Positions 15,584 through 29,668 of a DNA stretch of 57,328 nucleotides are shown here, in pieces (within the stretch, counting starts at the first letter, position 1; the number at the start of each line of letters is the position of its first letter). Source of the stretch: a virus; IMG/VR virus record IMGVR_UViG_3300032208_000014, positions 1 through 57,328 of that record; one strand, written 5' to 3'. Both the position numbers and the translations under genes were made by a program. The notes below the pieces were generated by a model. That model ran no database searches. It was not told where the DNA came from and saw nothing but the letters and a program-made list of their open reading frames with translations.

Positions 15584-16234
15584 ATGGCAAAGCAAACAGT
15601 AGGAATTGGTTCAAACGCGAATGACGGCACGGGTGATACTCTGCGTGACGGCGCAGATAAGATTAATGATAATTTCACCGAAATCTACAATGCGTTGGGG
15701 AACGGCACTACACTAACTGACATCATTGATACAAACGGTGTTATTGACGTTAGTTCTGGTGCAAACAAAATTGTTTTTTACTATGCTGCTTTGACTGATT
15801 TGCCTAGCGCATCAACTTATCATGGTGCGATTGCACATGTCCACGCAAATGCTGGCATGTACTTTGCTCATGGCGGTAATTGGATACGAATAAACGATGA
15901 AGTTAGTGGTCCTATAACTAAATATACAGTAACAGCGGCTACGGGTTCTGCCTATACTTTTTCCGGTCCTGGGGCTACTGCTGGCAACAATCCTAACTTT
16001 ACCTTTTATAAAGGTCACACATACTTAATAGACAACTCTTCCTATGTTACTAGCCACCCTTTGCAGATACGGACATCTAATGGCGGCTCTGCTTTTACAA
16101 CAGGGGTCACAGAAAACTATAACAGCACCGCTGGGCTGACTCAGTTTATCGTGCCACATGAGCCTAGTGATACTTCGCTAGTATATCAATGCACTGTTCA
16201 CAGCAGCATGGTTGGAAACATAACAATAGTATAG
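15584..16234 (+). CDS. Virion protein with a C-terminal cupredoxin-like domain
   Basis: At 216 residues, the N terminus (GIGSNANDGTGDTLRDGADK, then INDNFTEIYNALG) is a trimeric fibre start found in T4-like and marine phage structural proteins. The C-terminal 100 residues have a cupredoxin pattern (FYKGHTYLIDNSS, SHPLQIR, FIVPHEPSD, VYQCTVHSSMVGNITI). The four type-1 copper ligands expected in that fold are present: His158, Cys203, His206 and Met209 (Cys-x2-His-x2-Met). Most likely it is a tail or neck fibre; whether it binds copper is unknown. Confidence 0.75.
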   Translation: MAKQTVGIGSNANDGTGDTLRDGADKINDNFTEIYNALGNGTTLTDIIDTNGVIDVSSGANKIVFYYAALTDLPSASTYHGAIAHVHANAGMYFAHGGNWIRINDEVSGPITKYTVTAATGSAYTFSGPGATAGNNPNFTFYKGHTYLIDNSSYVTSHPLQIRTSNGGSAFTTGVTENYNSTAGLTQFIVPHEPSDTSLVYQCTVHSSMVGNITIV

Positions 16235-16246
16235 TGAGCAAGTGAC

Positions 16247-16894
16247 ATGTCATTTACATATACACAGCTACAAGATGCAATAAAGGATTTCGCGGAAAAC
16301 ACCGAAACATCGTTTGTTACAAATTTGCCCGTGTTTATTCGTGGTGCAGAAGATCGTATTTTTACGATGGTTGATTTAGAACTGTTTCGTAAAAACGCCA
16401 CCTCTGCCCTAACGAGCAGCGATCCGTATCTAAGTGTTCCAACCGATTATTTGTCACCGTTTTCATTACAGATTACTAGCACGGGCAATAAAGCATTTTT
16501 ACTCCAAAAAGATGTAAATTTTGTTCAACAGTATGCGATTGATTACGGCAGTAATGCGGTGCCTCAATACTACAGTGTTTATGATGTTGACAATTTTATT
16601 GTTAGTCCAACTCCTGATAGTAATTACACCGTAGAACTTCACTACTACTACAGACCAGCTAGTATCACCGCTGGTTCTGGATCTGGTACGTCATGGCTGA
16701 GTGAGAACGCCCCTAATGCTCTTCTTTACGGTTCACTTGTGGAAGCGTATACTTACATGAAGGGTGAACAGGACATGATGCAGCTGTATGAGCAACGATT
16801 CTTACAGGAGATTCAACGTCTGAAAGATTTGGCAGAAGCTAGAGAAAATTCAGATGCGTATCGTAGGGGTTTACCCGATAGGCCAAGGACTTAG
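16247..16894 (+). CDS. Second connector/adaptor-like protein
   Basis: This 215-residue protein has helical ends and a beta middle. Landmarks are YTQLQDAIKDFAENTETSFV, FIRGAEDRIFTMVDLELFRK, LSVPTDYLSPFSLQI, LHYYYRPASI and LYGSLVEAYTYMKGEQDMMQ. The order matches podovirus adaptor or tail-tube proteins that plug the portal. It lies 12 nt downstream of the cupredoxin gene. Two paralogous adaptors in one genome are common in this phage group. Confidence 0.7.
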   Translation: MSFTYTQLQDAIKDFAENTETSFVTNLPVFIRGAEDRIFTMVDLELFRKNATSALTSSDPYLSVPTDYLSPFSLQITSTGNKAFLLQKDVNFVQQYAIDYGSNAVPQYYSVYDVDNFIVSPTPDSNYTVELHYYYRPASITAGSGSGTSWLSENAPNALLYGSLVEAYTYMKGEQDMMQLYEQRFLQEIQRLKDLAEARENSDAYRRGLPDRPRT

Positions 16895-16903
16895 GAGTAA
16901 CAA

Positions 16904-17332
16904 ATGGCAACAAGTAACGCAGCAACCACTTACCTTGAGAATAAAATACTTAGTTTTATTTTCAAGAATAATGCTGGTTCATTCGCAACACCGGGCGACA
17001 GTATATATGTTGGCTTGGCAACGGCAGTTTCTGACGCAGAGGCTGGTTCATTAACAGAAGCAACCTTTGGTTCGTATGCACGACAGCAAGTGACCGCAGC
17101 TAACTGGACACTGGCTTCTGCAAGCACGGATCAACAGACAGTTACCAACGCAGCTAATATTGAGTTTCCGGCATCAACTGGAACCAGCAATACTGTGACA
17201 CATGCATTTCTTGTAGATGCGGCTTCAAGCGGTAACATTCTGTTTGTTGGTGCGCTGGACGCAAACAAGACTATTGCTACGGGGGATATCTTCCGCATTA
17301 ACGCTGGGAATCTTACAGTCGAGTTGAAGTAA
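16904..17332 (+). CDS. Tail/fibre structural protein
   Basis: This 142-residue Ala/Thr-rich protein begins with YLENKILSFIFKNNAGSFAT, then GDSIYVGLATAVSDAEAGSL, a pattern recurrent in marine phage tail genes. It is beta-rich with no catalytic motif. AGGAG lies before ATG 16904. It is translationally coupled to the next fibre gene. It is probably a small tail fibre or fibre-base component. Confidence 0.65.
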   Translation: MATSNAATTYLENKILSFIFKNNAGSFATPGDSIYVGLATAVSDAEAGSLTEATFGSYARQQVTAANWTLASASTDQQTVTNAANIEFPASTGTSNTVTHAFLVDAASSGNILFVGALDANKTIATGDIFRINAGNLTVELK

Positions 17333-17712
17333 TGGCTCTTGTTCTGAAAGACCGCGTGAAAGAAACAACCACCACAACGGGCACTGGCACATATACTCTT
17401 GCTGGTGCTGTAGGTGGCTTTGAGGCGTTTAGTCAAATAGGTAATGGTAACACTACCTATTACGCTTGCACGGATGGAACCGACTTTGAGATAGGTATTG
17501 GAACCTACACTGCATCTGGTACAACCTTGGCTCGTACCACAATTTTGCAGTCTAGCAATTCTGATAATGCTGTTAGTTGGTCATCAGGCACCCGCACTAT
17601 CTTCTGTACGTTGCCAGCAGAGAAGATGATATTTAATGACGCGAGTGGAACCGCGCAGAACTTTACAGAACAAGACCCGAATGCGTTGGCATTCGCAATA
17701 GCATTGGGATAG
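17332..17712 (+). CDS. Small tail-fibre protein
   Basis: This 126-residue protein contains LKDRVKETTTTTGTGTYTLA, GFEAFSQIGNGNTTYYAC and LARTTILQSSN, the hallmark of a fibre module often found at the N terminus of marine and Caulobacter phage fibres. Beta-rich. It starts at the previous stop. It is likely a docking or shaft unit. Confidence 0.7.
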   Translation: MALVLKDRVKETTTTTGTGTYTLAGAVGGFEAFSQIGNGNTTYYACTDGTDFEIGIGTYTASGTTLARTTILQSSNSDNAVSWSSGTRTIFCTLPAEKMIFNDASGTAQNFTEQDPNALAFAIALG

Positions 17713-17716
17713 AAAA

Positions 17717-18046
17717 ATGGCTAACGCATTTAAAACATTTACAGACACCGCAGTGGGGACAGCCAACGCAGATGTTTATACCTGTCCTAGTTCAACGGAA
17801 ACAACAATTATCGGATTGAACATTGCCAACATCCTAACTGTTTCTATCACGGTAAACGTACAGCTAATCAACAATGATGGCGACAATGTGCATATTGTAA
17901 AGTCAGCTATTGTCCCTGTTGGCTCGTCACTGGTAGCAGTTGGCGGCGATCAGAAGATTGTGATGAACGCTTCTGACATTTTGAGAATAACAGCCAGCCA
18001 AGCATCAGCGGCGGACGTTACCCTGTCTGTATTGGAGATTACCTGA
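17717..18046 (+). CDS. Small beta-rich tail protein
   Basis: This 109-residue protein (TCPSSTETTIIGLNIANI, VQLINNDGDNVHIVKSAIVP, ASDILRITASQA) looks like a single compact beta domain, of a kind found in marine phage tail clusters. The next gene starts inside its stop codon. Its function is unknown beyond the fibre context. Confidence 0.65.
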   Translation: MANAFKTFTDTAVGTANADVYTCPSSTETTIIGLNIANILTVSITVNVQLINNDGDNVHIVKSAIVPVGSSLVAVGGDQKIVMNASDILRITASQASAADVTLSVLEIT

Positions 18047-18258
18047 TGGCACTTAGCACGATTGATACAAATCAGATTAAGGACGGTGGTGTGCATAACG
18101 CAGACATTGCGGCATCAACTACCACTAACCCGTTTCGCACAAACGCTACCAGCATTACTAGCGACCTGACTGTGGCTTCCACAGAAAACGCAGGGGCTTT
18201 TGGACCAATAACCATCTCCGCAACAATCACTGTTAATGGAGTGTTGACCGTTGTCTAG
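18046..18258 (+). CDS. Short fibre linker protein
   Basis: This 70-residue protein opens with a fibre-type ladder (STIDTNQIKDGGVHNADIAA) and ends with ITISATITVNGVLTVV. The same ending style (LTIDTSTAITVNGNLTIL) closes the protein at 22022-22750. It may be a short trimerising unit linking fibre genes. It overlaps the next gene by 8 nt. Confidence 0.6.
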   Translation: MALSTIDTNQIKDGGVHNADIAASTTTNPFRTNATSITSDLTVASTENAGAFGPITISATITVNGVLTVV

Positions 18259-18787
18259 TCGTATTCTTGTAGATGAAATATATGGCAAGACTTCTAACTC
18301 GTCTGCACTAACGATTGGCAGTAATGGTCTTGTTACGCCTAAAGCTGTAGCCTTTCAAGTTGAAGCCACTGACACAGACCAAAGTTATACAGCAAGTGCC
18401 TATGCGAAGATAACTTGGGAGACAGTTACATTAGATACTGGAAGTTATTGGGACACCACAAATAATAGATATACGCCACAGGTTGCTGGTTGGTATTTAT
18501 TTGGTGGCACAGTCAGAGTTCAATTTCCCAGTCTTGTAAACTTTGTTGCTTTTAACATAGCAAAAAACGGCAACACAAGTGATGGCACGGCTTTAATGTC
18601 ACAAATTCAAAACTCTTCTACGGATACTTTTGGCAATGGTGAGTATGCAATGCCCACTGGCATGATTCAACTGAACGGTTCTACCGATTATGTTGAGGTA
18701 TACTTTCAATCTGATGAAGCCGCAACTATTCACGACCACGCTACCAGAAAGTCGTATTTCTGGGGACATCTTGTTCACGCAACTTAG
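18251..18787 (+). CDS. Tail-fibre tip with C1q-like domain (copy 1)
   Basis: At 178 residues from TTG 18251, the N-terminal docking motif SSRILVDEIYGKTSNSSALT resembles that of the other short fibre genes here. The rest has a C1q/TNF-like jelly-roll pattern (YWDTTNNRYTPQVAGWYLFG, IAKNGNTSDGTALMSQ, FWGHLVHAT). Such domains are trimeric ligand-binding heads at phage fibre tips. It overlaps the previous gene by 8 nt. The target is unknown. Confidence 0.65.
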   Translation: MSSRILVDEIYGKTSNSSALTIGSNGLVTPKAVAFQVEATDTDQSYTASAYAKITWETVTLDTGSYWDTTNNRYTPQVAGWYLFGGTVRVQFPSLVNFVAFNIAKNGNTSDGTALMSQIQNSSTDTFGNGEYAMPTGMIQLNGSTDYVEVYFQSDEAATIHDHATRKSYFWGHLVHAT

Positions 18788-18795
18788 GAAAAACA

Positions 18796-19275
18796 ATGGC
18801 ATCAGAACTGGGCGTACAAACAATACAGCACACTAATGGCACAGATGCTATGACCATAGATAGCAGTGGTCGTATTCTTCAGCCAACTAAACCAGCGTTT
18901 ACAGCACACAGAACAAGTAATCAAAATTCAGGAATAATTATATTTGACACTGCTTTGGTAAACCAAGGTTCGCATTACAACACAAGCAATGGAAAATTTA
19001 CTGCGCCTATAGCAGGTCTTTATCATTTTTCATTTCAGGCTTTAAGCGATAATGACGGAACAGACGCTTATTATAGTGTGTCTTTATATATCAACGGGTC
19101 TTCGTATGCTGTTGAACAAAGTTACACTTACGAAGATAATGATTCAACTGCTGGAGGTTCTATTGTAGCGTCTCTTTCTGCTAACGATTATGTTCAAGTT
19201 CATAGTAGTAAAAAGGTATATGGGTACGCGGCAACCTTTAATTGTACATATTTTTCAGGCTTTCTAATAGGATAG
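18796..19275 (+). CDS. Tail-fibre tip with C1q-like domain (copy 2)
   Basis: At 159 residues, the N-terminal docking motif is ASELGVQTIQHTNGTDAM, then the linker TIDSSGRILQPTKPAF, then a clear C1q-like domain (IIIFDTALVNQGSHYNTSNG, FTAPIAGLYHFSFQA, YFSGFLIG end). GSHYN followed by G-x-F-x-AP-x-AG-x-Y is diagnostic. It is one of five copies in this array. Confidence 0.8.
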   Translation: MASELGVQTIQHTNGTDAMTIDSSGRILQPTKPAFTAHRTSNQNSGIIIFDTALVNQGSHYNTSNGKFTAPIAGLYHFSFQALSDNDGTDAYYSVSLYINGSSYAVEQSYTYEDNDSTAGGSIVASLSANDYVQVHSSKKVYGYAATFNCTYFSGFLIG

Positions 19276-19284
19276 AGTAACAGG

Positions 19285-19845
19285 ATGACTAGCATAATAA
19301 AAGCTGACCGTGTTCAAAGTACATCCGATGGGTTTGTTCTTCCTCCTGCTGGCGGCGTTATTCAAACGCAGTATTTACAATATACAAGCACAACTAGCAC
19401 TTCTTGTCCAAATGCCACTAATGTATCACTTGACCACTTAGCGGTGAGCATTACACCTATATCAACCAGTAGCATTATAAGAATTGATGCAATGGTAAAC
19501 GGTGAGTGGTCTAATCAAGGTTCTGCCTATAACTCAGTTTGGTTTTTTTACAGAGGTAGCACAAAGCTGGGTCATGTCAGTGCTGACCACTTACCTGTAG
19601 GTGTTCTTATGGGTACAAGTATAACTTATGATGCCGCAAACAACGCCTCGACACCAGAACACGCAGTTTACAGTTACTTTGATACGCCTTCGACAACCAG
19701 CCAGATAACTTACAAGGTAGGTGTTTATCAGGGTCAGAGTGCTACTCAAACGTGGTACACTAATAGAACTGTAGGTGATAGTACTAATAATTCTCAGTAT
19801 GAAAGAGGCACATCGTTTATTAGCGTGACGGAGATAGCTGGATAA
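19285..19845 (+). CDS. Tail-fibre protein, EIAG family (copy 1)
   Basis: At 186 residues, the start MTSIIKADRVQSTSDGFVLP is the docking motif. The body has LAVSITPISTSSIIRIDAMV, YFDTPSTTSQITYKVGVYQG and the end SFISVTEIAG. This family recurs at 23295-23837 and 24764-25282 and is common in marine phage fibres. The jelly-roll-like head probably binds a surface glycan or protein. ATG of the next gene overlaps the stop. Confidence 0.7.
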   Translation: MTSIIKADRVQSTSDGFVLPPAGGVIQTQYLQYTSTTSTSCPNATNVSLDHLAVSITPISTSSIIRIDAMVNGEWSNQGSAYNSVWFFYRGSTKLGHVSADHLPVGVLMGTSITYDAANNASTPEHAVYSYFDTPSTTSQITYKVGVYQGQSATQTWYTNRTVGDSTNNSQYERGTSFISVTEIAG

Positions 19846-20750
19846 TGGCATACATCGGCGCACAACCAAATAAGCAGTTAACAAAGACAACGAGTCAGTC
19901 CTTCAACGGCACAGGTTCGGCGACCGCGTTTACACTTAACCGCGCCGTGAACACTGGTGAGGAGCTAGAGGTGTTCGTTGACAACGTGCAGCAGGAGCCT
20001 GGGGTTGGCAAGTCATACACAGCCACAGGAACTACACTGACGTTTGACGAAGCCCCGCCGTCTGGTACAGGTAACGTGTACGTTATCTATCGCGGTCAGG
20101 CAGAGGTAACAACACGGCTGGAAGCACCAGACCTTTCTATTACAACTGCGAAGCTGGCGGCTAGTGCGGTGACTACAGCGAAGATAGCTGATGATGCTGT
20201 AACATCTGACAAGCTAGCGCATGACCTAACTGTGCAGACCAGCCTAAGTGTGCCAACAATCAAAGACAGCAGCGGTTCAAATACTGCTATGACGATTAAT
20301 AGCAGTGGGATTATTTCTACGCCAGCAAGGCCAGCATTTTACGCTTATGGTGACGATGGTTGGACAGGGCTGGCCGCTATTAATACTTATTACATAGGTG
20401 GTTTTGACCACACTGAGTTTAATATTGGCAGTCATTATAATACAAGCACTAAACTTTTCACTGTGCCTGTGAGTGGTGTTTATCTCTTTAGGTCGCAAGT
20501 TTATTTTAACGACAGTGGCAACCCGACAGTGCAAATTGCTTTTCAACAAACCAGTAGCGGCTCTACTACGCTTATAGCTTTTACGGCTCAACAGCAAGCT
20601 GGAGACGGAACTATTGGTATAACAAGAATTTATAATGCAGTGGCTGGTCAACAAATCGGTGCTTATGTTTACAAGTCCGCTCTTACTGCAAACACTGATT
20701 ATTTCTTAGGTATAAATCATTCTTATTTTTCTGGCGTATTTTTAGGGTAG
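19845..20750 (+). CDS. Long tail fibre with C1q-like tip (copy 3)
   Basis: At 301 residues, it combines an N-terminal baseplate-type domain (AYIGAQPNKQLTKTTSQSF, TGEELEVFVDNVQQEPGVGK) and a repeated ladder (TTAKLAASAVTTAKIADDAV). The linker is TINSSGIISTPARPAF, followed by a C1q-like head (HTEFNIGSHYNTSTKLFTVP, SYFSGVFLG end). It shows how the short neighbouring genes correspond to parts of longer fibres. The N-terminal domain is shared with 22022-22750. Confidence 0.75.
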   Translation: MAYIGAQPNKQLTKTTSQSFNGTGSATAFTLNRAVNTGEELEVFVDNVQQEPGVGKSYTATGTTLTFDEAPPSGTGNVYVIYRGQAEVTTRLEAPDLSITTAKLAASAVTTAKIADDAVTSDKLAHDLTVQTSLSVPTIKDSSGSNTAMTINSSGIISTPARPAFYAYGDDGWTGLAAINTYYIGGFDHTEFNIGSHYNTSTKLFTVPVSGVYLFRSQVYFNDSGNPTVQIAFQQTSSGSTTLIAFTAQQQAGDGTIGITRIYNAVAGQQIGAYVYKSALTANTDYFLGINHSYFSGVFLG

Positions 20751-20759
20751 GAGTTTGAA

Positions 20760-21848
20760 ATGCCATTAAGCAAAATTAAAACAAACTCTGTAGCTGACGA
20801 GGTTTTTGAAACAGGGCCTAATCTTATTCAAAACGGATCTATGGCTGTTAGCCAACGCGGAAGTAGCTTTAGCTTTGCACATGACGGAACGAGGTCAGCT
20901 TACACTTTAGATAGGTTTTCTTTTTCTATGAGAAGTACATCAGATGAGTTTGACTGTACAGTTGCACAAGTGACTGATGCGCCTGCTGGTTTTTCAAAGT
21001 CTCTAAAACTGACAACAGGCACTGCTGAAAGTGCTGTTGGTTCAGATGAATATTACAATTTCTATCACCCAATCGAGGCACAAAACTTACAGCACTTACA
21101 ACACGGCACATCAGGCGCAAAAAAAGTAACTGTATCTTTTTATGTTAAATCTTCAATAACAGGAACTTTTGGTTTTAGTGCATACAAAGCAGACAACACC
21201 CCGCGAGTTATAGCAAAAACTTACACAATAAGCAGTGCGAACACATGGGAAAGAAAAGAAATTACGATAGAGGGCGACACGAGCCAATCTATTGATAATG
21301 ATAATGGCGGAGGAATGTGGCTTTATTGGATGATGGGGGCGGGTACAGACTTTAACAGTGGTGCTTCTACAACAACTTGGGCAGATTATGGAAGTGGCAC
21401 AACATGGTTTCAAGCTAGTGCTACAAATAATGTTGTTACAACAGCAAGCGCAACTTGGCAACTAACAGGCGTACAACTTGAAGTAGGCGAAAAGGCAACG
21501 CCTTTTCAGCACGAGAGCTATGGGGCAACATTACGCAAATGCCAACGCTATTATTTCCCAGCGCAAAACTACAATATTTACTCAGGATGGGCTATGACAT
21601 GGGGCAGTGGTACGCAGTATCCAAAAGTTAACGCTGATTTTCCTGTCCCTATGAGAGCCGCGCCTAGTATTACTTACGGGCAGTCTAACAGCGGCACTGC
21701 GAATCAAATTGAATGGGTTGACGGTTCAACCACAGGCGCGAGTTCATGGGGTGTAGGCGTAAATGGTATCTATTACGTTTTTACCCCCTCAAACATAGCT
21801 GCAAATATTTCGGGTCAGTTTAGATATACAGCAGATGCGGAGATATAA
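20760..21848 (+). CDS. Tail fibre with carbohydrate-binding-like domain
   Basis: At 362 residues, it begins with PLSKIKTNSVADEVFETGPN, then LIQNGSMAVSQRG and YTLDRFSF. A CBM-like jelly roll follows, ending ATWQLTGVQLEVGEKATPFQ, HESYGATLRKCQRYYFP and a C-terminal variable domain. LIQNG, QLTGVQLEVG and the CQRYY motif are typical of phage fibres that bind surface carbohydrate. The C-terminal 100 residues are probably the receptor-contact part. Confidence 0.75.
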   Translation: MPLSKIKTNSVADEVFETGPNLIQNGSMAVSQRGSSFSFAHDGTRSAYTLDRFSFSMRSTSDEFDCTVAQVTDAPAGFSKSLKLTTGTAESAVGSDEYYNFYHPIEAQNLQHLQHGTSGAKKVTVSFYVKSSITGTFGFSAYKADNTPRVIAKTYTISSANTWERKEITIEGDTSQSIDNDNGGGMWLYWMMGAGTDFNSGASTTTWADYGSGTTWFQASATNNVVTTASATWQLTGVQLEVGEKATPFQHESYGATLRKCQRYYFPAQNYNIYSGWAMTWGSGTQYPKVNADFPVPMRAAPSITYGQSNSGTANQIEWVDGSTTGASSWGVGVNGIYYVFTPSNIAANISGQFRYTADAEI

Positions 21849-22022
21849 ATGAACATCACAAGCGCAAAGTACGGGACAGACCAGAACGGAAACAATATTG
21901 GGGTCATGGCAGTTATTGACGGCGGAACAATGTGGGTTCCAAATGACCCTGATAACCGACATTGGGAAGCTGTTGTTGAGTGGGAAAAGAAAGACGGCAA
22001 TACAATACAGGACGCTGACTAA
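21849..22022 (+). CDS. 57-residue protein between fibre genes
   Basis: This small acidic protein (MNITSAKYGTDQNGNNIGVM, WVPNDPDNRHWEAVVEWEKK) starts directly after one fibre gene and its stop overlaps the next start. The D-N-x-x-[YW]-x-x-[FV] pattern with a charged end resembles short tail-fibre accessory or assembly proteins found in marine phages. It is too short to assign firmly. Confidence 0.65.
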   Translation: MNITSAKYGTDQNGNNIGVMAVIDGGTMWVPNDPDNRHWEAVVEWEKKDGNTIQDAD

Positions 22023-22750
22023 TGGCATATATAGGCATTGACCCAAACGTAGGTGACATCAGCTTTCAGACCTTTACAGGCACTGGAAGCGCAACTGCGT
22101 TTACACTGGCACAAAGCGTTGTCAGCGGCGAAGCCATTATGGTTGTTATTGGTAACGTCATTCAAGAGCCAGGGATAGGCAAGGCGTATACAGCGCAAGG
22201 CACAACTCTCACCTTCTCCTCACCGCCAGCTAATGGCGATGTAATACAGGTGCGCTACTTTGGTCGTGCCGTGGATCAGCCTACCAGTTTTGCAATGCAG
22301 TTGTTCAGGTACACAGCAACAGCAAGTCAAACCGCCTTTACAGGTGCGGATGCTAACGGTGCAATACTGGCCTTCTCTGGTAACGATGTGGATGTATATC
22401 TAAACGGTGTGCATCTTGACAGTTCAGACTTCACTGCCAGCAATGGTGATACAATCACACTTGGTTCTGGTGCAGCGGTAAACGATGAGTTAGTTATCCG
22501 CGCTTTTCGTGCATTTACTGTGACAGATACAGTCAGCAAGTCTAGCGGCGGTACATTCGCGGCTGAGATTACAGCGACACAGTTTCAGACTACAAACACC
22601 ACAGTTGATACCGCTGTATTCCGCACCAATGGACAAACAGTAGACGAGGATACTACAATAGCATCGACCAAGAACGCATTGGCGATTGGTCCGTTGACCA
22701 TAGACACATCAACTGCGATTACCGTCAATGGTAATCTGACAATACTGTGA
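22022..22750 (+). CDS. Tail-fibre base protein
   Basis: This 242-residue protein starts AYIGIDPNVGDISFQTF and contains VVIGNVIQEPGIGKAYTAQG and VRYFGRAVDQP, the same N-terminal domain as 19845-20750. A second similar domain follows (AFSGNDVDVYLNGVHLDSSD, DELVIRAFRAF). It has no C1q head; it ends LTIDTSTAITVNGNLTIL. It probably provides a platform onto which separately encoded tips dock. Confidence 0.7.
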   Translation: MAYIGIDPNVGDISFQTFTGTGSATAFTLAQSVVSGEAIMVVIGNVIQEPGIGKAYTAQGTTLTFSSPPANGDVIQVRYFGRAVDQPTSFAMQLFRYTATASQTAFTGADANGAILAFSGNDVDVYLNGVHLDSSDFTASNGDTITLGSGAAVNDELVIRAFRAFTVTDTVSKSSGGTFAAEITATQFQTTNTTVDTAVFRTNGQTVDEDTTIASTKNALAIGPLTIDTSTAITVNGNLTIL

Positions 22751-22757
22751 GGCACAG

Positions 22758-23291
22758 ATGGCTTCAATACTGAATGTAAATAAGATTAGGGCGGCGGGTT
22801 CGACAGCAGACGGCCTTACGATTGACAGTAGTGGACGCATTAATACACCTGCCAGACCTTTATTTAGAGTTGGCATGACAAATACTACTTCAGGTTCAAC
22901 TGGCGGTATAATTATATTTGACACTGCTATAAACAATGTTGGTAATCATTACAGTACTAGCACGGGTATTTTTACTTGTCCTGTTGCTGGATTTTATCAA
23001 TTTGGGCATAGCATCTTATTTCAAGATGTAGCTACTTCAGATGACAGTATTCATACTTATTACAGGGTAAACAGTAATTCAGCTACTGGTTATCTTTTTG
23101 ACCGAGCAGATGGATTAGATGCAAATGGCTATTCAGGCACAGGCGGTTATTTAAATTCTAGAGGTAATGGTATAATGCAGCTCGCGGTTAACGATACGGT
23201 TGACTTGTATTTTACCTGCACTGGTTCAATTCAAATTCATGGAAACTCGAATTCAAATTGGAGTCAGTTTTACGGATATTTAATAGGATAA
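22758..23291 (+). CDS. Tail-fibre tip with C1q-like domain (copy 4)
   Basis: At 177 residues, the docking motif is ASILNVNKIRAAGSTADG, the linker LTIDSSGRINTPARPLF, then a C1q-like head (GGIIIFDTAINNVGNHYSTS, IFTCPVAGFYQFGHSI, WSQFYGYLIG end). It resembles copies 2 and 5 in order and length but diverges in the surface regions, as expected for receptor-binding variants. Confidence 0.75.
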   Translation: MASILNVNKIRAAGSTADGLTIDSSGRINTPARPLFRVGMTNTTSGSTGGIIIFDTAINNVGNHYSTSTGIFTCPVAGFYQFGHSILFQDVATSDDSIHTYYRVNSNSATGYLFDRADGLDANGYSGTGGYLNSRGNGIMQLAVNDTVDLYFTCTGSIQIHGNSNSNWSQFYGYLIG

Positions 23292-23294
23292 ATC

Positions 23295-23837
23295 ATGTCA
23301 ACATTATTCGTAGATACAATAAATGAGAAGACCACAAACAACGGGGTGGAGATTCCGGGTCATGTTATCAATGTTCAGTCTGTAAAGTTTAGTGGTACTC
23401 AAACTACAACCAGTAGTTCGTTTACAGATGTTACAGATTTAAGCATAACTATGACACCAAAATCATCTAGTTCTAAATTTTTTGTATCTTGTTCTATGGC
23501 TGTAGGTTGTGACAATTATTTTGTTTATCTTAGATTGGTAAGAAATGGAGTAGCTTTACTAACCCCTGACGACACAGGTAGCAATAGAAGTACGTCTCAT
23601 TTTCAATATATGAGTGATGTTGTTGGCTCAAGTGCTTATATACTTTTGCATCTTCCAGCGCAACATCTTGATTCACCTAATACTACATCTGCTGTTACTT
23701 ATAAAGTTCAATTTGCTATAAGGTCAGATACTAGTATGTCAGGCTATATTAATAGAACCCATAGAAATTTAGATAATGCAGGCGGCTATGATGCTAATGG
23801 TGTATCAACACTTACTGTTATGGAGATTGGCGGATGA
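23295..23837 (+). CDS. Tail-fibre protein, EIAG family (copy 2)
   Basis: At 180 residues, the start is STLFVDTINEKTTNNGVEIP. The body has DLSITMTPKSSSSKFFVSCS, LDSPNTTSAVTYKVQFAIRS and the end STLTVMEIGG. Same family as 19285-19845 and 24764-25282. The 3' end overlaps the next fibre gene by 4 nt. Confidence 0.7.
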   Translation: MSTLFVDTINEKTTNNGVEIPGHVINVQSVKFSGTQTTTSSSFTDVTDLSITMTPKSSSSKFFVSCSMAVGCDNYFVYLRLVRNGVALLTPDDTGSNRSTSHFQYMSDVVGSSAYILLHLPAQHLDSPNTTSAVTYKVQFAIRSDTSMSGYINRTHRNLDNAGGYDANGVSTLTVMEIGG

Positions 23838-24358
23838 CCAGCATATTAAAAGTCACCGAAATCCAAGACCCAACGAACTCGAACAGTGCGCTATCGATTG
23901 ACAGCACTGGACGCATCACTACCCCAGCTAGACCAGCGTTTAGAGCGGGGTTAACTGCCAATTATTCTCACGGAAGTGGGGGTGTTGATATGTCGGCTAA
24001 CGGAACTTGGGGCGTGCTTTTTGACATAGGTGGAAACTTCAACACTTCCACTGGACTGTTTACCGCCCCTGTAGCTGGCATTTATATGTTTACTGGAGTT
24101 TGGGGCACTAATTCAATGACCAACACTATGACTTATGCAAGTTGGGAGTTTACGGTTAATGGCTCAAGAACAAACACATTTTGGCATGGCCATGACCTTG
24201 ATGGTTCGGCATCATATCACGGTCACGCTAACACTGGCGTTTACCAGTTATCAGCAAATGATACAGTTGGTATATATTCCGAAATATCACAATCAGTAAC
24301 AATAAATGGTAACGCTAGTATGACTTACAGTAACTTCTGCGGGTTTTTGGTGGGGTAA
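23834..24358 (+). CDS. Tail-fibre tip with C1q-like domain (copy 5)
   Basis: At 174 residues, the docking motif is TSILKVTEIQDPTNSNSA, the linker LSIDSTGRITTPARPAF, then a C1q-like head (FDIGGNFNTSTGLFTAPVAG, FWHGHDLDGSASYHGHA, SNFCGFLVG end). A His-rich surface loop (HGHDLDGSASYHGHAN) is peculiar to this copy and could bind metal. It overlaps the previous gene (ATGA). Confidence 0.7.
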   Translation: MTSILKVTEIQDPTNSNSALSIDSTGRITTPARPAFRAGLTANYSHGSGGVDMSANGTWGVLFDIGGNFNTSTGLFTAPVAGIYMFTGVWGTNSMTNTMTYASWEFTVNGSRTNTFWHGHDLDGSASYHGHANTGVYQLSANDTVGIYSEISQSVTINGNASMTYSNFCGFLVG

Positions 24359-24361
24359 ATA

Positions 24362-24760
24362 ATGGCATCAGTATCAGAAGCAATTCAAGCACTAGACCCA
24401 AACTGTCAGTTTGTACTGCGTGGCGAACCCACAGACGCGATTAGTTTTAACGCGGCCTTTAGTCTTGTAGTGGGCGTAGATGAGAGTGGTTCAGCTATAC
24501 TATCTGATGACTCAAATGATTGGGAAAGGGCAGGAATAACATGGGGCACGGTCAAAACAAAACTGAACGAACTTAACGAACTAGAGCCAATGAAGCGGTT
24601 GCGCGAGGAGCGTAACCGCCGTATCGCTGAGACAGATTGGTGGGCATCGTCTGACCTTACCATGTCCGCAGAACGCACAGCCTATCGTCAGGACTTGCGC
24701 GACATAACTAAAATCTTCTCATCACTTGACGATGTGGTGTGGCCTGATAAGCCGGAGTAA
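24362..24760 (+). CDS. Tail fibre assembly chaperone-like protein
   Basis: At 132 residues, the C-terminal half (RLREERNRRIAETDWWASSD, then RTAYRQDLRDIT) matches the conserved end of phage tail-fibre assembly proteins, where R-x-x-R-N-x-x-[IL]-x-x-T-D-W is the signature. Such proteins help fold or trimerise fibres and are encoded beside them. The N-terminal half is variable. Confidence 0.75.
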   Translation: MASVSEAIQALDPNCQFVLRGEPTDAISFNAAFSLVVGVDESGSAILSDDSNDWERAGITWGTVKTKLNELNELEPMKRLREERNRRIAETDWWASSDLTMSAERTAYRQDLRDITKIFSSLDDVVWPDKPE

Positions 24761-24763
24761 GCT

Positions 24764-25282
24764 ATGAGTAACGCCCGTAATCTTGCTAATCTGTTAGGTA
24801 CAAGCACTACAGTTCCGTCTTCTAAACAGCCTGCTGGTTCTGTGTTGCAGGTAAAAAGTGATGTTTTAACAGGAGCTGCATCCACTTCAGGCACAACTTT
24901 TGTTGACACTGGGCTGTCTGTTGATATTACACCAAGCTCTACGTCCAGTAAATTTTTAATTATAGTAAATTTGGGTCTTGTCGGTGTAAATTCAAGCGAT
25001 GGTGTTATGACCAAACTTTTTAGAGATTCTACTGAGATAGCTTCTGCAACTGGTGCAGATACACGAAATCTTTTTACACAGAGTTACTACGGTGCTACAT
25101 CCAATTATTATGTAGGAACTAGCAATCACTTTTTTGATACGCCTTCTACATCATCACAAATTACTTACAAGCTACAATTTGCAATGACAGGCTCAACAAA
25201 CACAGGCTACATAAATAGAAGACCCAGTGATAATTTTGCTAGAACAAGCTCTAATTTTACTGTTATGGAAATAGCAGGCTGA
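24764..25282 (+). CDS. Tail-fibre protein, EIAG family (copy 3)
   Basis: At 172 residues, the start is SNARNLANLLGTSTTVPSSK, a fibre N terminus common in marine phages. The body has LSVDITPSSTSSKFLIIVNL, FDTPSTSSQITYKLQFAMTG and the end NFTVMEIAG. Third member of this family in the array. The next gene starts on its last base (TGATG). Confidence 0.7.
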   Translation: MSNARNLANLLGTSTTVPSSKQPAGSVLQVKSDVLTGAASTSGTTFVDTGLSVDITPSSTSSKFLIIVNLGLVGVNSSDGVMTKLFRDSTEIASATGADTRNLFTQSYYGATSNYYVGTSNHFFDTPSTSSQITYKLQFAMTGSTNTGYINRRPSDNFARTSSNFTVMEIAG

Positions 25283-26001
25283 TGTTCGGCGAACTGTCGA
25301 TATCAGAAAACCCGCTTGCCACCCAAGGCATTGTGCTTTTTGGGTCTGAATCGCTTGACGCAAACTTCACGCAGTCAACAGACTTATCCGCCATACTTAA
25401 CGGTAGTATGTCGGTTGATGCTTTCTTCTCAAAGGTGTCCGCAGCGGCGGGGACGCTGGTTGCTGAAATAGAAATTACATCTGACTTTACACAGACCACA
25501 CAGGGGCTGCGTTTTGCTACTGGCGTGGCTGACTTAGATTTTCAGTTTGACCAGACAACAGCGGCAAACCTTACAGCGTCTGGTGACGCATCAGTTGATG
25601 CTAACTTCACACAGACAAGCACCGCAGTCAAAGTAGCCTCTGGCGTAGCTCAAGTAGACTTTAACTTCACACAAACATCCGCTGCTATAGCTATACTTTA
25701 CTTGCTCAGTGACCAAACTGCACAATTTGATTACGACCCACTAGGTGGTTTGCTGCTTAGAACAGGGCTGAGTATGGATTCTCAGTTCGACATTACGCAG
25801 GCTCTGGGCGGGTTCTTGCGCTTTGCGGCGCAGACAATGGACAGTGTGTTTATTATGACGGCAGATGGTGCTATACTCTGGGTAAAGGTTGACGCAGGTG
25901 GTACACCAGAAAGCTGGACACAGGTGACACACACAGGCGATAGCTGGACTGAAATAAACGCAGGCACATCGTCTGAAACATGGACAAACAAGGTGGTATA
26001 A
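25282..26001 (+). CDS. Repetitive tail protein (FTQT repeats)
   Basis: At 239 residues, it is built from degenerate repeats of roughly 20-25 residues with the core V/L-D-x-x-F-T-Q-T/S (SLDANFTQSTDLSAIL, EIEITSDFTQTTQGLRFATG, ASVDANFTQTSTAVKVASG, QVDFNFTQTSAAI). The C-terminal Trp-rich part (ESWTQVTHTGDSWTEINA) has SxxW repeats. Such repeats suggest an elongated beta-stack or shaft. No homologue is named with confidence. Confidence 0.65.
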   Translation: MFGELSISENPLATQGIVLFGSESLDANFTQSTDLSAILNGSMSVDAFFSKVSAAAGTLVAEIEITSDFTQTTQGLRFATGVADLDFQFDQTTAANLTASGDASVDANFTQTSTAVKVASGVAQVDFNFTQTSAAIAILYLLSDQTAQFDYDPLGGLLLRTGLSMDSQFDITQALGGFLRFAAQTMDSVFIMTADGAILWVKVDAGGTPESWTQVTHTGDSWTEINAGTSSETWTNKVV

Positions 26002-26793
26002 ATGGCAAGTACATTTACTTCAAACTCAGGTATTGAAAAACCGGGATCTGGTGAACAGGCTGGGGCTTGGGGGACAACTGTCAATACAAACTTTGACATC
26101 ATTGACCGTGTCTTAAACGGCGTTGTTACGCTTACTTTGACAGGTACAACCACAACACTTACCACAACAGACGGGGCTTTGTCAGACGGTCACTATAAAG
26201 TGTTGGTGTTATCTGGTTCTCCGTCAGGCACAAATACAGTTACTATTACTCCAAATGACCAGTCAAAGCTGTATCTTGTAAACAACACCACCTCACAATC
26301 TGTTGTGTTCACACAAGGCTCTGGCGGTAACGTTACTATTTTAGCAGGAGCATCCGCTTGGATTTATGGCGATGGCGCGGGTTCTGGCGCACAGGTTCGT
26401 GTGTTGCCCTCTGATGTTGTTGGGGACACGACCCCACAGCTTGGAGGAGATTTGGACGTTAATGGAAACTCGATTGTCTCTACCAGCAACGGAAATATTA
26501 ACATTACACCCAACGGCACAGGCACAGTTGCCATATCTAAGTTGCAGGCAGCAAGCTTAAACTATCCTACGGCTGACGGCACAAACGGTCAGTATCTGCA
26601 AACAAACGGATCTGGCACTCTAAGTTTTTCTACTGTGCCGATCAGCGGCACTACCTTTACACTAGGTAGTTGGACTATAAGTGTAGTTAGTAATGAACTG
26701 GTATTTAGCTACAGCGGCACGGGTGTAGCTAAAATAAAAACCACAGGTGAAATTGTATCTGCGGACGACATCACAGCTTCAGGAACAATCTAA
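26002..26793 (+). CDS. Tail-fibre protein
   Basis: This 263-residue Thr/Gly/Ser-rich protein starts with FTSNSGIEKPGSGEQAGAWG, TTVNTNFDIIDRVLNG, a fibre N-terminal module widespread in marine podoviruses. It also contains QLGGDLDVNGNSIVSTSNGN, a beta-ladder unit, and ends in a short beta domain. It begins directly after the previous stop. Confidence 0.7.
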   Translation: MASTFTSNSGIEKPGSGEQAGAWGTTVNTNFDIIDRVLNGVVTLTLTGTTTTLTTTDGALSDGHYKVLVLSGSPSGTNTVTITPNDQSKLYLVNNTTSQSVVFTQGSGGNVTILAGASAWIYGDGAGSGAQVRVLPSDVVGDTTPQLGGDLDVNGNSIVSTSNGNINITPNGTGTVAISKLQAASLNYPTADGTNGQYLQTNGSGTLSFSTVPISGTTFTLGSWTISVVSNELVFSYSGTGVAKIKTTGEIVSADDITASGTI

Positions 26794-27519
26794 ATGGCTC
26801 TTCCAAGTTCTGGCGCAATTAGTTTAAGCGAAATAGCTTCACAGTATGGCGGAACCGCACCGCACAGCTTGAAGGATTATTATCGTAATGGCACAGAAGG
26901 TGTTCCTGATACAGCATCAACGCAAAGCATACCGACAAGCGGTGAGATTGGAATTAAGGACTTTTATGGTAGTTCTGAATCCAGCAACAGAGACATACGG
27001 GTTTGGATGTCTTATTTGTTTAACGAAAACGGATTTGGCGTAACCTCACAAAGCAGCACAGCCGCTCCTTCGAGCATATCCGCCGTTGCAAATGCTGTAG
27101 CTTGGCAACCTGTGTTTCGTGCGGGGCTAGGCTATATAACCAGTGCAAGTATTACAATTTCACAAAACGAAGATACATCTGCCTACAACAACAATGTGGT
27201 TTTGTACGGCGGCACAAGTGACAGCACCGTGACTAATGTAGTTGCGGCTTGGAACGCTGGATCTAGCGGCAGCACTGGTGGAGCTAGAAGCTACAGCATA
27301 GCATGGACTAATGCGGGGCTTATAAGCTCTATTACTTACACAGGTGGAAGCTATAACACGGGCATTATTGTTTGGGCTACCGATAATGTAAGCTCCGCAA
27401 ATAGCTCTGGATATACATGGTTTGGATTTAAAGTTACCAACCCTCCTAGCTTTGGTAAGGGTGCCCGTGTTCTGGGCGGTACTTTCTATAGTTCTTCTTC
27501 ACAGCCGCAACCGTCATAG
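26794..27519 (+). CDS. Tail protein with ALPSSGAISLSEIA start
   Basis: At 241 residues, the N terminus ALPSSGAISLSEIASQYGGT, APHSLKDYYRNG recurs in many marine phage tail proteins and ends with GEIGIKDFYG, a repeat of the same phrase. The C-terminal 180 residues form a Ser/Ala/Asn-rich beta domain. It is the last gene of the fibre array. Confidence 0.65.
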   Translation: MALPSSGAISLSEIASQYGGTAPHSLKDYYRNGTEGVPDTASTQSIPTSGEIGIKDFYGSSESSNRDIRVWMSYLFNENGFGVTSQSSTAAPSSISAVANAVAWQPVFRAGLGYITSASITISQNEDTSAYNNNVVLYGGTSDSTVTNVVAAWNAGSSGSTGGARSYSIAWTNAGLISSITYTGGSYNTGIIVWATDNVSSANSSGYTWFGFKVTNPPSFGKGARVLGGTFYSSSSQPQPS

Positions 27520-27526
27520 GTGGTAC

Positions 27527-29668
27527 ATGCCCTTAACTAAGTTACAGTTTAAGCCAGGTATTAACAGAGAGGTCACTTCGTATTCAAACGAAGGGGGCTG
27601 GCGCGACTGTGACAAAATTAGATTTCGGTTTGGCTATCCTGAAAAAATGGGTGGTTGGGAAAAGTACACAGAAAGTACCTATGATGGCTCTGCTCGTGCG
27701 CTGCATAACTGGATTGCGCTAGATGGCTCTGACTATCTGGGCATAGGCACTCACCTTAAATACTATATTGAAGAAGGTGAAAGCCTGAACAACATAACCC
27801 CGCTTCGCAACACCACTGCGGCAGGAGACGTTACATTCGCTGCAACAAATGGTTCTGCTACTATTACTGTTACAGATGTAGGACACGGTGCTTTTCAGTT
27901 CGATTTTGTTACTTTTTCCGGGGCAGTTAGTCTTGGAGGTGTAATTACCGCTACCGTTCTTAATCAGGAATATCAAGTTGCACGAGTTGTAGACGCTGAC
28001 ACATACGAGATTACCAGCGCAGTAGCCGCTAACTCGTCAGACTCAGGTAACGGTGGTTCAAGCACCGTAGGTGCGTACCAAATAAATGTAGGTCTAAACA
28101 CCTCTGTTGGCGGTACAGGTTGGGGTGCGGGTCTTTACTATGGTGTAACTAACGGCGCATTGCAGACAACACTCAACGAAGGCGGCACACTGTCCGCAGC
28201 CGACACAACAATTACCGTAACAAGCACCACAGGCATTGTAGCTAGTGATGTTGTGTTAATTGGCAATGAACTTATTCTAGTTGGTGGTATATCAAGCAAC
28301 GACCTGACAAGTTGTACACGCGGTCACTCTGGCACTACAGCTACAACACATGCTGATGGTTCTGTTGTAAGATTAGCACTAGGTAACGCTGACCCAGCAA
28401 ATGACTTTTCAGGCTGGGGACAAGCGGCATCAGGTGGTTTGACAACGACCACACAGATACGTTTGTGGTCACATGATAACTTTGGGGAAGATCTGCTTAT
28501 CAATCCACGCGATGATGAAATCTACTATTGGGACAGAACAAACAACCTGTCCACTCGTGCTGTAAAGTTGAACACAATCACAGGCACAAAGCGAAGTGTT
28601 CCGACTGTAGCCAAACAGGTTCTTGTTTCTGACCGTGACAGGCATGTTATTGCTTTTGGAGCAGACGGTTTGAACGCTAGTGCATCAGCAACAGATGGCA
28701 ATGGCACACAAGACCCTTTGCTCATCCGCTTTTCTGACCAAGAGAACCCAACTGAATGGTATCCTACGGCAACCAACACAGCGGGTGATTTACGTTTGGG
28801 TGCAGGATCAACCTTCATGCAAGCCGTAGAAACAAAGCGTGAGATACTGGTGTGGACGGACACCGCCCTTACTTCCATGCGTTTTATTGGTCCGCCATTT
28901 ACTTTTGGCCTACAGCAACTGTCCAGTAACATCACAATCATGAGTCCAAATGCGGCTGTAGCGACAGAAGATTTTGTTTTCTGGATGGGTATTGATACGT
29001 TCTATGTCTATGCTGGACAGACACAAACACTTCCCTGCACAGTTAAGGACAAGGTTTTCCTAGATTTTAACCTTACACAAAAAGACAAGGTTGTCGCAGG
29101 CATCAACTCTGAGTTTAGTGAAGTAACATGGTTCTATCCGTCCGCTAGTTCTAGTGAAAACAATCGATATGTCACATACAACTACAGTGAAAAGGTATGG
29201 TACTTTGGTACGCTTGAAAGAACGGCATGGTTGGATCGTGGAACTCGAACCTTCCCTATAGCTACAGGGGACGGATACATTTACAACCATGAGCTTGGTT
29301 ATGATGACGATGGCTCTGCTATGAGTTCATTTATCGAGTCGGCGGCGATAGATATTGGTGACGGCGATAGATTTACATATTTGCGTAAAGTCATACCTGA
29401 CCTAACTTTTGACGGGTCAACTAATCTTGCTTCACCGCAAGCTACGTTTACAGTCAAGGCGCGTAATAATCCTGGGGCAGACTTTGACAGCACGCAGTCC
29501 GGCACAACCAGTCGTACACAAACCACACCAGTGGAGGAGTTTACAGAACAGCTTGATTTAAGAGTGCGTGGACGTTCTTTTGCTCTTCGTGTAGAATCAA
29601 GTGCATTAGGGTCTAAATGGAAGTTGGGCAGTCCTCGCGTAGATATAAGACAAGACGGTAGAAGATAA
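27527..29668 (+). CDS. P22 gp10-like tail hub / DNA stabilisation protein
   Basis: At 713 residues, it starts with LTKLQFKPGINREVTSYSNE, GGWRDCDKIRFRFGYPEKMG, GW, the signature of the large stabilisation protein in marine podoviruses. Later landmarks are RSVPTVAKQVLVSDRDRHVI, LIRFSDQENPTEWYPT, VWTDTALTSMRFIGPPFTFG and VFWMGIDTFYVYAG, a beta-propeller-like pattern. ATG 27527 is preferred; an upstream in-frame start would overlap the previous gene by 98 nt. It seals the portal-connector after packaging. Confidence 0.8.
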   Translation: MPLTKLQFKPGINREVTSYSNEGGWRDCDKIRFRFGYPEKMGGWEKYTESTYDGSARALHNWIALDGSDYLGIGTHLKYYIEEGESLNNITPLRNTTAAGDVTFAATNGSATITVTDVGHGAFQFDFVTFSGAVSLGGVITATVLNQEYQVARVVDADTYEITSAVAANSSDSGNGGSSTVGAYQINVGLNTSVGGTGWGAGLYYGVTNGALQTTLNEGGTLSAADTTITVTSTTGIVASDVVLIGNELILVGGISSNDLTSCTRGHSGTTATTHADGSVVRLALGNADPANDFSGWGQAASGGLTTTTQIRLWSHDNFGEDLLINPRDDEIYYWDRTNNLSTRAVKLNTITGTKRSVPTVAKQVLVSDRDRHVIAFGADGLNASASATDGNGTQDPLLIRFSDQENPTEWYPTATNTAGDLRLGAGSTFMQAVETKREILVWTDTALTSMRFIGPPFTFGLQQLSSNITIMSPNAAVATEDFVFWMGIDTFYVYAGQTQTLPCTVKDKVFLDFNLTQKDKVVAGINSEFSEVTWFYPSASSSENNRYVTYNYSEKVWYFGTLERTAWLDRGTRTFPIATGDGYIYNHELGYDDDGSAMSSFIESAAIDIGDGDRFTYLRKVIPDLTFDGSTNLASPQATFTVKARNNPGADFDSTQSGTTSRTQTTPVEEFTEQLDLRVRGRSFALRVESSALGSKWKLGSPRVDIRQDGRR

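Follow-up and report, generated by a model that had tools for sequence, protein, structure and literature searches.

We analyzed a fibre-gene array at positions 16904–27519 of IMG/VR virus record IMGVR_UViG_3300032208_000014 (57,328 bases; hereafter, the window), which derives from an uncultured marine virus that infects bacteria. Based on the nozzle-like protein and the portal, its closest cultured relatives are the Pelagibacter phages HTVC023P and HTVC027P, DSL-LC04, 023Pt_psg01, and the Roseobacter phages CRP-901/902 (approximately 33–49% protein identity); no near-identical DNA was found in INPHARED. The region holds 19 packed open reading frames (ORFs) on the + strand, between a P22-gp4-like/adaptor block and the nozzle-like protein (Table 1), and most of them overlap by 1–8 nt or sit ≤12 nt apart. 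A preliminary description had counted about 17 short genes; the packed array is real, but it comprises 18 ORFs plus an overlooked 57-residue ORF (21849–22022), and its outermost genes (starting at 16904, 17332, and 17717 on the left and 25282, 26002, and 26794 on the right) are not tips but conserved structural or flank genes. The variable part of the array, 18046–25282, holds about a dozen small tip genes: besides two bases, an APC chaperone, and a free dock domain, it encodes five C1q-type heads, of which one is fused to base1, three EIAG heads, and a CBM-like fibre accompanied by a 57-residue partner. The C1q, EIAG, base, CBM, and chaperone counts of the preliminary description were confirmed by PF00386, phrog_6942 with paralogy, phrog_4492, and PF16778: g10, g12 (C-terminus), g15, and g17 exceeded the Pfam cut-off for C1q, with g09 slightly below it, whereas g11 and g16 belong to phrog_6942 and g19 is their paralogue. 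Its common docking start and linker were recovered as well, with an SxLxVxxI start in six tips (g09, g10, g11, g15, g16, and g17; loose in some) and a clear TIDSSGRIxTPARPAF linker in g10, g12, g15, and g17 (four C1q linker copies of 50 nt each in this genome, 60–72% identity). Tips are mostly 150–190 residues long, with no enzyme domain recognized. The array is beyond chance, with paralogy E-values down to 5e-29 and recurrence of the pattern in about 88 contigs.

Approximately 160 loci (L numbers below), some overlapping, were gathered by scans with the nozzle-like protein and base2, and parts were located in relatives using hidden Markov models of the window's parts. The relatives of the window share one gene order: g07, slot A (joined by B, C, and D if it is a dock), base1 carrying head E, slot F, base2, then G, H, and I, APC, slot J, and flank. 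This fixed-slot pattern was present in about 88 related IMG/VR contigs, with conserved starts, plugs, and slot order and with intact ORFs. Each slot is marked by a plug, 10–25 N-terminal residues particular to that slot. Mean identity in most slots falls from approximately 0.9–1.0 at residues 1–10 to 0.1–0.3 by residues 35–40; slot F is invariant only in its first five residues, and the drop is shallower in slot D. In a nearest-neighbour test of 243 distinct proteins (plug: first 16 residues; head: residue 41 to the end), slots were assigned by position only, replacing an earlier assignment of plugs by regular expressions. The nearest neighbour in another locus occupied the same slot for 242/243 proteins by plug vs. 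138/243 by head, whereas within-locus label shuffles yielded about 41 same-slot neighbours for plug or head (heads: 41 ± 7). The slot A plug, which precedes a dock domain in the window, bears an EIAG or CBM head in other loci.

Exchange of heads behind these plugs, within and between slots, is well supported by sequence comparisons. When the window was compared as DNA to L009, L007, and L089, conserved islands of approximately 80–130 nt (85–96% identical) were found at gene starts, with unrelated heads between them. Where base2 DNA identity is <97%, about 90% of same-slot heads are <50% identical, and plugs average 0.74–0.86 identity. Relatives with near-identical base2 genes differ by single heads, L116–L119 hold several G/H/I head combinations, and pairs with one G/H/I head in common seldom share the other two. 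L104 and L106 match at 99.76% identity for 7,816 nt before splitting at the slot I linker, at codon 27. Between slots, 105 head pairs are at least 60% identical; the nine inspected as DNA share 88.9–98.5% identity, from codons 11–29 to the stop or ≤17 nt past it. Heads clustered at 85% identity form twelve groups that extend over more than one slot; in one of these groups, every slot is represented by two independent samples. Close copies of four heads of the window occur elsewhere in different slots. At the level of 85% clusters, head B (g09) matches the slot G head of L007, L014, and L088 (94.6% DNA identity to L088), head G (g15) matches the slot I head of L098 and L099 (95.9% to L098), and the base1-fused C1q head corresponds to a free-standing slot G tip in L109 and L113. 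The CBM fibre g13 is a composite: its first 60 nt match slot F of L009 (96%), whereas its C-terminal part matches slot J of L009 (80–95% per 60-nt window), as does its 57-residue partner. The suggestion in the preliminary description that tips are exchanged by recombination thus holds in a narrower form, in that slot order and plugs are fixed and only heads are replaced or moved between slots. It had also held that an unvarying array with a fixed gene order in close relatives would speak against its reading; the order is fixed, but the content varies.

Tips with SxLxVxxI plugs were found only downstream of dock-domain genes. In the interval between g07 and base1, such tips are present in every locus that has a free dock (9/9) and in none of those that lack one (0/57). 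Base2 is followed by exactly three tips in 59/73 loci, and the 152-residue dock protein by three in 6/7; the short free dock precedes three tips in 6/12 loci and two in 6/12. This association among related loci, which is not proof, suggests that the dock is a socket for about three tips.

The array is occasionally replaced as a whole. Both flanks of L006 are 84–88% identical to the window at the DNA level, whereas its array is almost entirely different and resembles that of the SAR116 phage HMO-2011 (several proteins 69–88% identical). Other relatives of the window carry one or two large fused fibres (approximately 700–1,190 residues) at the same place, and HMO-2011-type roseophages have fused fibres of about 669–1,443 residues, compared to about 14 short genes in HMO-2011. 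The earlier view that these modules are fused in other phages is borne out by both groups, and by the base1-fused head that is free in L109 and L113. Among HMO-2011-type phages (L173–L178 vs. L168), one fused fibre (669–1,443 residues) and a split short-gene array alternate at the same place. In the annotations of CRP-901, HTVC023P, DSL-LC04, and 023Pt_psg01, the nearest isolates by nozzle and portal, no array was found beside the nozzle; with the HMO-2011-type roseophages being fused, no isolate pair free of assembly doubt was available for head swapping. In L132, L134, L137, and L157, a base2-G-H-I-APC-J array is followed by genes other than the rep239-g21-nozzle block, and the array therefore rides another phage backbone. 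Separately, L167 (PQ492659, Limnohabitans phage DC33) is filed as Inoviridae, yet it is 39 kb long with tailed-phage-type fibre genes, including a large fibre that ends in a C1q-like head.

Structure prediction with AlphaFold (AF2; 69 sequences) gave a model for the EIAG tip g16 (pLDDT 85, pTM 0.83). Its first ~22 residues lack regular structure, and the remainder is a predicted TNF/C1q-like jelly roll whose nearest matches are the bacterial TNF-like lectins PLTL (Z 15.1, 2.1 Å over 125 residues) and BC2L-C (Z 14.3), with Z ~11 to C1q domains. EIAG heads are predicted to be TNF/C1q-type lectin folds, although a common fold is no proof of function. The base2 model is weak (pLDDT 66, pTM 0.36), and Foldseek/VIA rows under Z 8 were not taken alone as evidence of kinship. 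In this model, residues 10–80 resemble the N-terminal domain of T7 gp17 (Z ~7), residues 91–163 match the branching-domain region of CBA120 TSP4 (Z 9.0, 1.6 Å over 64 residues) and, similarly, other phage fibre bases, and a low-confidence linker after residue 163 leads to C-terminal dock strands. A profile search of base2 against the PDB returned antibody light chains at weak E-values, about half of them without a passing stretch, which we judged to be noise.

The genes around the array are conserved (Table 1). No significant PDB match was found for g06 or the repeat protein g20, and none for the P22-gp4-like protein. The gp80-like protein has one domain (142–146 residues) in relatives of the window vs. 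three to four tandem domains (~350 residues) in another clade (L124, L125, L128, L130, L141, L144, L146, and L151). The g20 protein, which adjoins the nozzle, consists of ~24-residue repeats (xxDANFTQTxx), reaches 360–411 residues with more repeats in some relatives, and could be a rope-like fibre part. An apparent in-frame insertion of ~310 residues was observed in the nozzle-like protein of L077 (3066–6137; 1024 residues), and the corresponding genes of L089, L092, and L098 carry ~900 nt of extra DNA at a similar place.

Table 1 Features of the array and its flanks, with positions in the window.
Feature	Position	Strand	Support
T4 gp9/10-N-like protein, candidate fibre anchor upstream of the array	15584..16234	+	Pfam PF07880 E 2.8e-7
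Conserved virion structural protein upstream of the array, putatively adaptor-like	16247..16894	+	phrog_2941 E 9e-27; weak match to phage adaptor chain 7z47, E 0.039
GP4 fibre-I (gp80)-like protein, conserved left flank	16904..17332	+	PF23140 E 2.7e-33; PDB 8jou E 1.7e-11
g06, conserved flank; corresponds to N-terminal part of 550–1040-residue proteins in fused-type relatives	17332..17712	+	
g07, conserved flank	17717..18046	+	phrog_1276 E 9e-9; kept in relatives
Slot A (g08): plug MALSTIDTNQI, then free-standing dock domain (paralogue of g14 C-terminus)	18046..18258	+	44% identity to g14 164–242, E 1e-10
Slot B tip (g09): plug MSSRILVDEIYGKT, C1q-like head	18251..18787	+	PF00386 just under cut-off
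Slot C tip (g10): plug MASELGVQTIQHTNGTDAMTIDSSGR, C1q head	18796..19275	+	PF00386 E 1.2e-20
Slot D tip (g11): plug MTSIIKADRVQ, EIAG (TNF-like) head	19285..19845	+	phrog_6942 E 5e-18; family fold
Base1 (g12, slot E): T7-gp17-N-like base fused to C1q head	19845..20750	+	53% identity to g14 N-terminus; PF00386
Slot F (g13): plug MPLSKIKTNSVADEVFETG, CBM-like fibre head	20760..21848	+	phrog_4492 E 9e-52
57-residue protein accompanying CBM-type heads, candidate chaperone	21849..22022	+	
Base2 (g14): T7-gp17-N-like, T4gp10/TSP4-XD-like, and C-terminal dock domains	22022..22750	+	AF2, VIA-align 2; phrog_18673
Slot G tip (g15): plug MASILNVNKIR, C1q head	22758..23291	+	PF00386 E 1e-12
Slot H tip (g16): plug MSTLFVDTINEKTTNNGVEIPGH, EIAG head	23295..23837	+	AF2 pLDDT 85; TNF-like lectin Z 15.1; phrog_6942
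Slot I tip (g17): plug MTSILKVTEIQDPTNSNSAL, C1q head	23834..24358	+	PF00386 E 1.6e-7
Phage_tail_APC tail-fibre assembly chaperone (g18)	24362..24760	+	PF16778 E 5.7e-10
Slot J (g19): plug MSNARNLANLLGTSTTVPSSK, EIAG head	24764..25282	+	36% identity to g16 over 164 residues
Repeat protein g20 (rep239), conserved right flank	25282..26001	+	Internal repeats; conservation
g21, conserved right flank	26002..26793	+	phrog_31104 E 2e-27
g22, conserved right flank	26794..27519	+	Conservation in relatives
Stabilization/nozzle-like virion protein, anchor for comparison	27512..29668	+	phrog_3287 E 5e-70; PDB 9nwi E 6.5e-9; DSL-LC04 homologue annotated 'stabilization protein'

Taken together, the region is probably a split plug-and-socket receptor-binding apparatus with head swapping, which we consider the best explanation of these data. 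Two base proteins (the N-terminal part of g12, and g14) would hold the apparatus on the tail, and each dock domain (the g14 C-terminus and free-standing g08) would hold short tips, as a rule three of them, by their N-terminal SxLxVxxI plugs (B, C, D and G, H, I), with other plugs used in slots A, F, and J. Behind the constant plug of each slot would stand one interchangeable head (C1q, TNF-like EIAG lectin, CBM with its 57-residue partner, or others). In this reading, plugs would bind docks physically and heads would bind receptors. General recombination at the border of plug and linker presumably exchanges heads within and between slots, and occasionally the whole array, so that the surface-binding repertoire would be altered with assembly undisturbed; the conserved gene-start islands and the repeated linker are plausible sites for it. 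Several points weigh against this interpretation. The loci are related, so that counts and the Fisher p-value are not independent, and the nine dock-positive loci may represent few lineages. The G/H/I labels in the nearest-neighbour test were drawn only from loci where that stretch holds exactly three genes, and the base2 model is, as noted, weak. Some slots are restricted to one head family (EIAG in H and D, C1q in C), and interchange of heads is for this reason not unlimited. In addition, almost all relatives are metagenome contigs, in which chimeric assembly at shared linkers could mimic some swaps.

Chimeric assembly as a general explanation would make cross-slot exchange an artefact of heads being attached to the wrong plugs at shared linkers. 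It agrees with the repetition of the linker in one genome and with the L104/L106 divergence point, which falls in a linker. We regard it as very unlikely, given that some head-slot pairs recur in independent samples, that several junctions (e.g., L014 J/L109 F) lie outside the C1q linker, and that intact arrays of the same order occur in many contigs. A more serious possibility, though still an unlikely one, is that the tips compete for the same sites, with each fibre or virion bearing one or a random few and the array serving as a store of options. All SxLxVxxI plugs have a core motif in common and several tips follow a single dock, in keeping with alternative display; however, every slot retains its own conserved plug as heads are exchanged, no two heads within one genome are >56% identical, and distinct plugs are not expected to persist under competition for one site. 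Because plugs are slot-specific and heads are not duplicated within a genome, the joint display of several tips on one virion, raised in the preliminary description, appears likely. Three tips per dock is the commonest count and EIAG heads are predicted to have a C1q jelly-roll fold, so the three could instead be chains of one C1q/TNF-like head, as in complement C1q, with B/C/D and G/H/I as chain positions. Such a heterotrimer is improbable: the G, H, and I heads are replaced independently, and their families can differ (e.g., a C1q head flanked by GDLA-type tips in HMO-2011), and a shared interface should not survive this.

Two further explanations have hardly any probability left. Hypervariability of the C-terminus of receptor-binding proteins behind a constant N-terminus is typical of diversity-generating retroelement and DNA invertase systems. 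Programmed variation of this kind is contradicted by whole-domain replacement of heads rather than point changes, by array ORFs that all lie on the + strand with no inverted gene copies, and by the lack of any reverse transcriptase (PF00078) or serine recombinase (PF00239) match at E ≤ 1 in the record. It is equally hard to see the array as functionless remains of broken fused fibre genes: large fused fibres do occupy the same place in relatives, but ORFs are intact, about 88 contigs agree in their starts, plugs, and slot order, and the isolated phage HMO-2011 has such an array.

The proposed plug-and-socket apparatus is a strong variant of the anchor/branched receptor-binding-protein principle and of marine metaviromic islands, and not a new kind of system. 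A conserved anchor or peptide with a variable receptor-binding module is established in branched systems (G7C, CBA120, KP32-like, Menlow, and PhiK64-1 groups; phiKp24) (PMC6872550; PMC9700779). Like these systems, the window has further receptor-binding proteins in which a short N-terminal peptide is conserved and the C-terminal module is highly variable; its base may also have a T4gp10-like domain, as the weak base2 model suggests, to which such peptides would attach. In contrast, those systems carry large depolymerase spikes, whereas most tips of the window are 150–190 residues long and follow a separate dock domain, typically in threes, and its heads move between slots while slot plugs stay. 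In marine metaviromic islands (Mizuno et al. 2014), C1q, carbohydrate-binding, and tail-fibre genes under-recruit, and N-termini are conserved with variable C1q domains (PMC3909814). Comparable variability emerged from our contig comparison; in the parts of that study considered here, variability comes from read recruitment, and slot plugs, the dock rule, and between-slot head movement are not given (PMC3909814). The bead-chain neck fibre of cyanophage A-1(L) consists of several short gene products with N-terminal hairpins docking head to tail (PMC10966104). Both it and GP4 fibre I, whose gp80 homologue adjoins the window array, are likewise built from separate short gene products, but A-1(L) uses few of them and repeated identical beads rather than a row of different tips.

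A close parallel in organization is the array of Puniceispirillum phage HMO-2011, with about 14 short genes, a dock-bearing base, SxLxVxxI tips, C1q, EIAG, APC, CBM, and a 58-residue partner; these features all recur in the window, with 28–49% identity between the respective parts. HMO-2011 differs in its mostly GDLA-type tips and in an apparently different backbone: among the 15 listed of 18 portal matches, HTVC027P, 023Pt_psg01, HTVC023P, and DSL-LC04 ranked at the top and HMO-2011 was absent. Relatives by backbone infect SAR11 and Roseobacter, and for some relatives SAR116 is indicated by the HMO-2011-like array. No description of plug and head behaviour in HMO-2011 was found in the literature searched, and none of a slot-specific plug, between-slot head movement, or a dock with about three tips was found in the open-access literature, although an earlier one may exist elsewhere.

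These results locate the border between attachment and recognition from sequence in a widespread group of uncultured marine phages. The plug offers a simple key for annotating hundreds of short 'hypothetical' genes, and the array yields testable predictions about stoichiometry (tips per dock) and natural host-range change. More tentatively, and with somewhat less than even confidence, we propose a combinatorial tail in which slot-addressed plugs equip every virion with a set of distinct trimeric lectin tips (three kinds to a dock), and heads are traded in the ocean between addresses and between unrelated backbones; if true, such a tail would reshuffle tip repertoires with assembly kept. Head swapping behind kept plugs is probably a fast way to alter which bacteria the virus can grip. 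Recognition heads can evidently pass between slots, fibre types, and phage backbones, which offers a concrete mechanism for the hypervariable host-recognition islands of marine phages.

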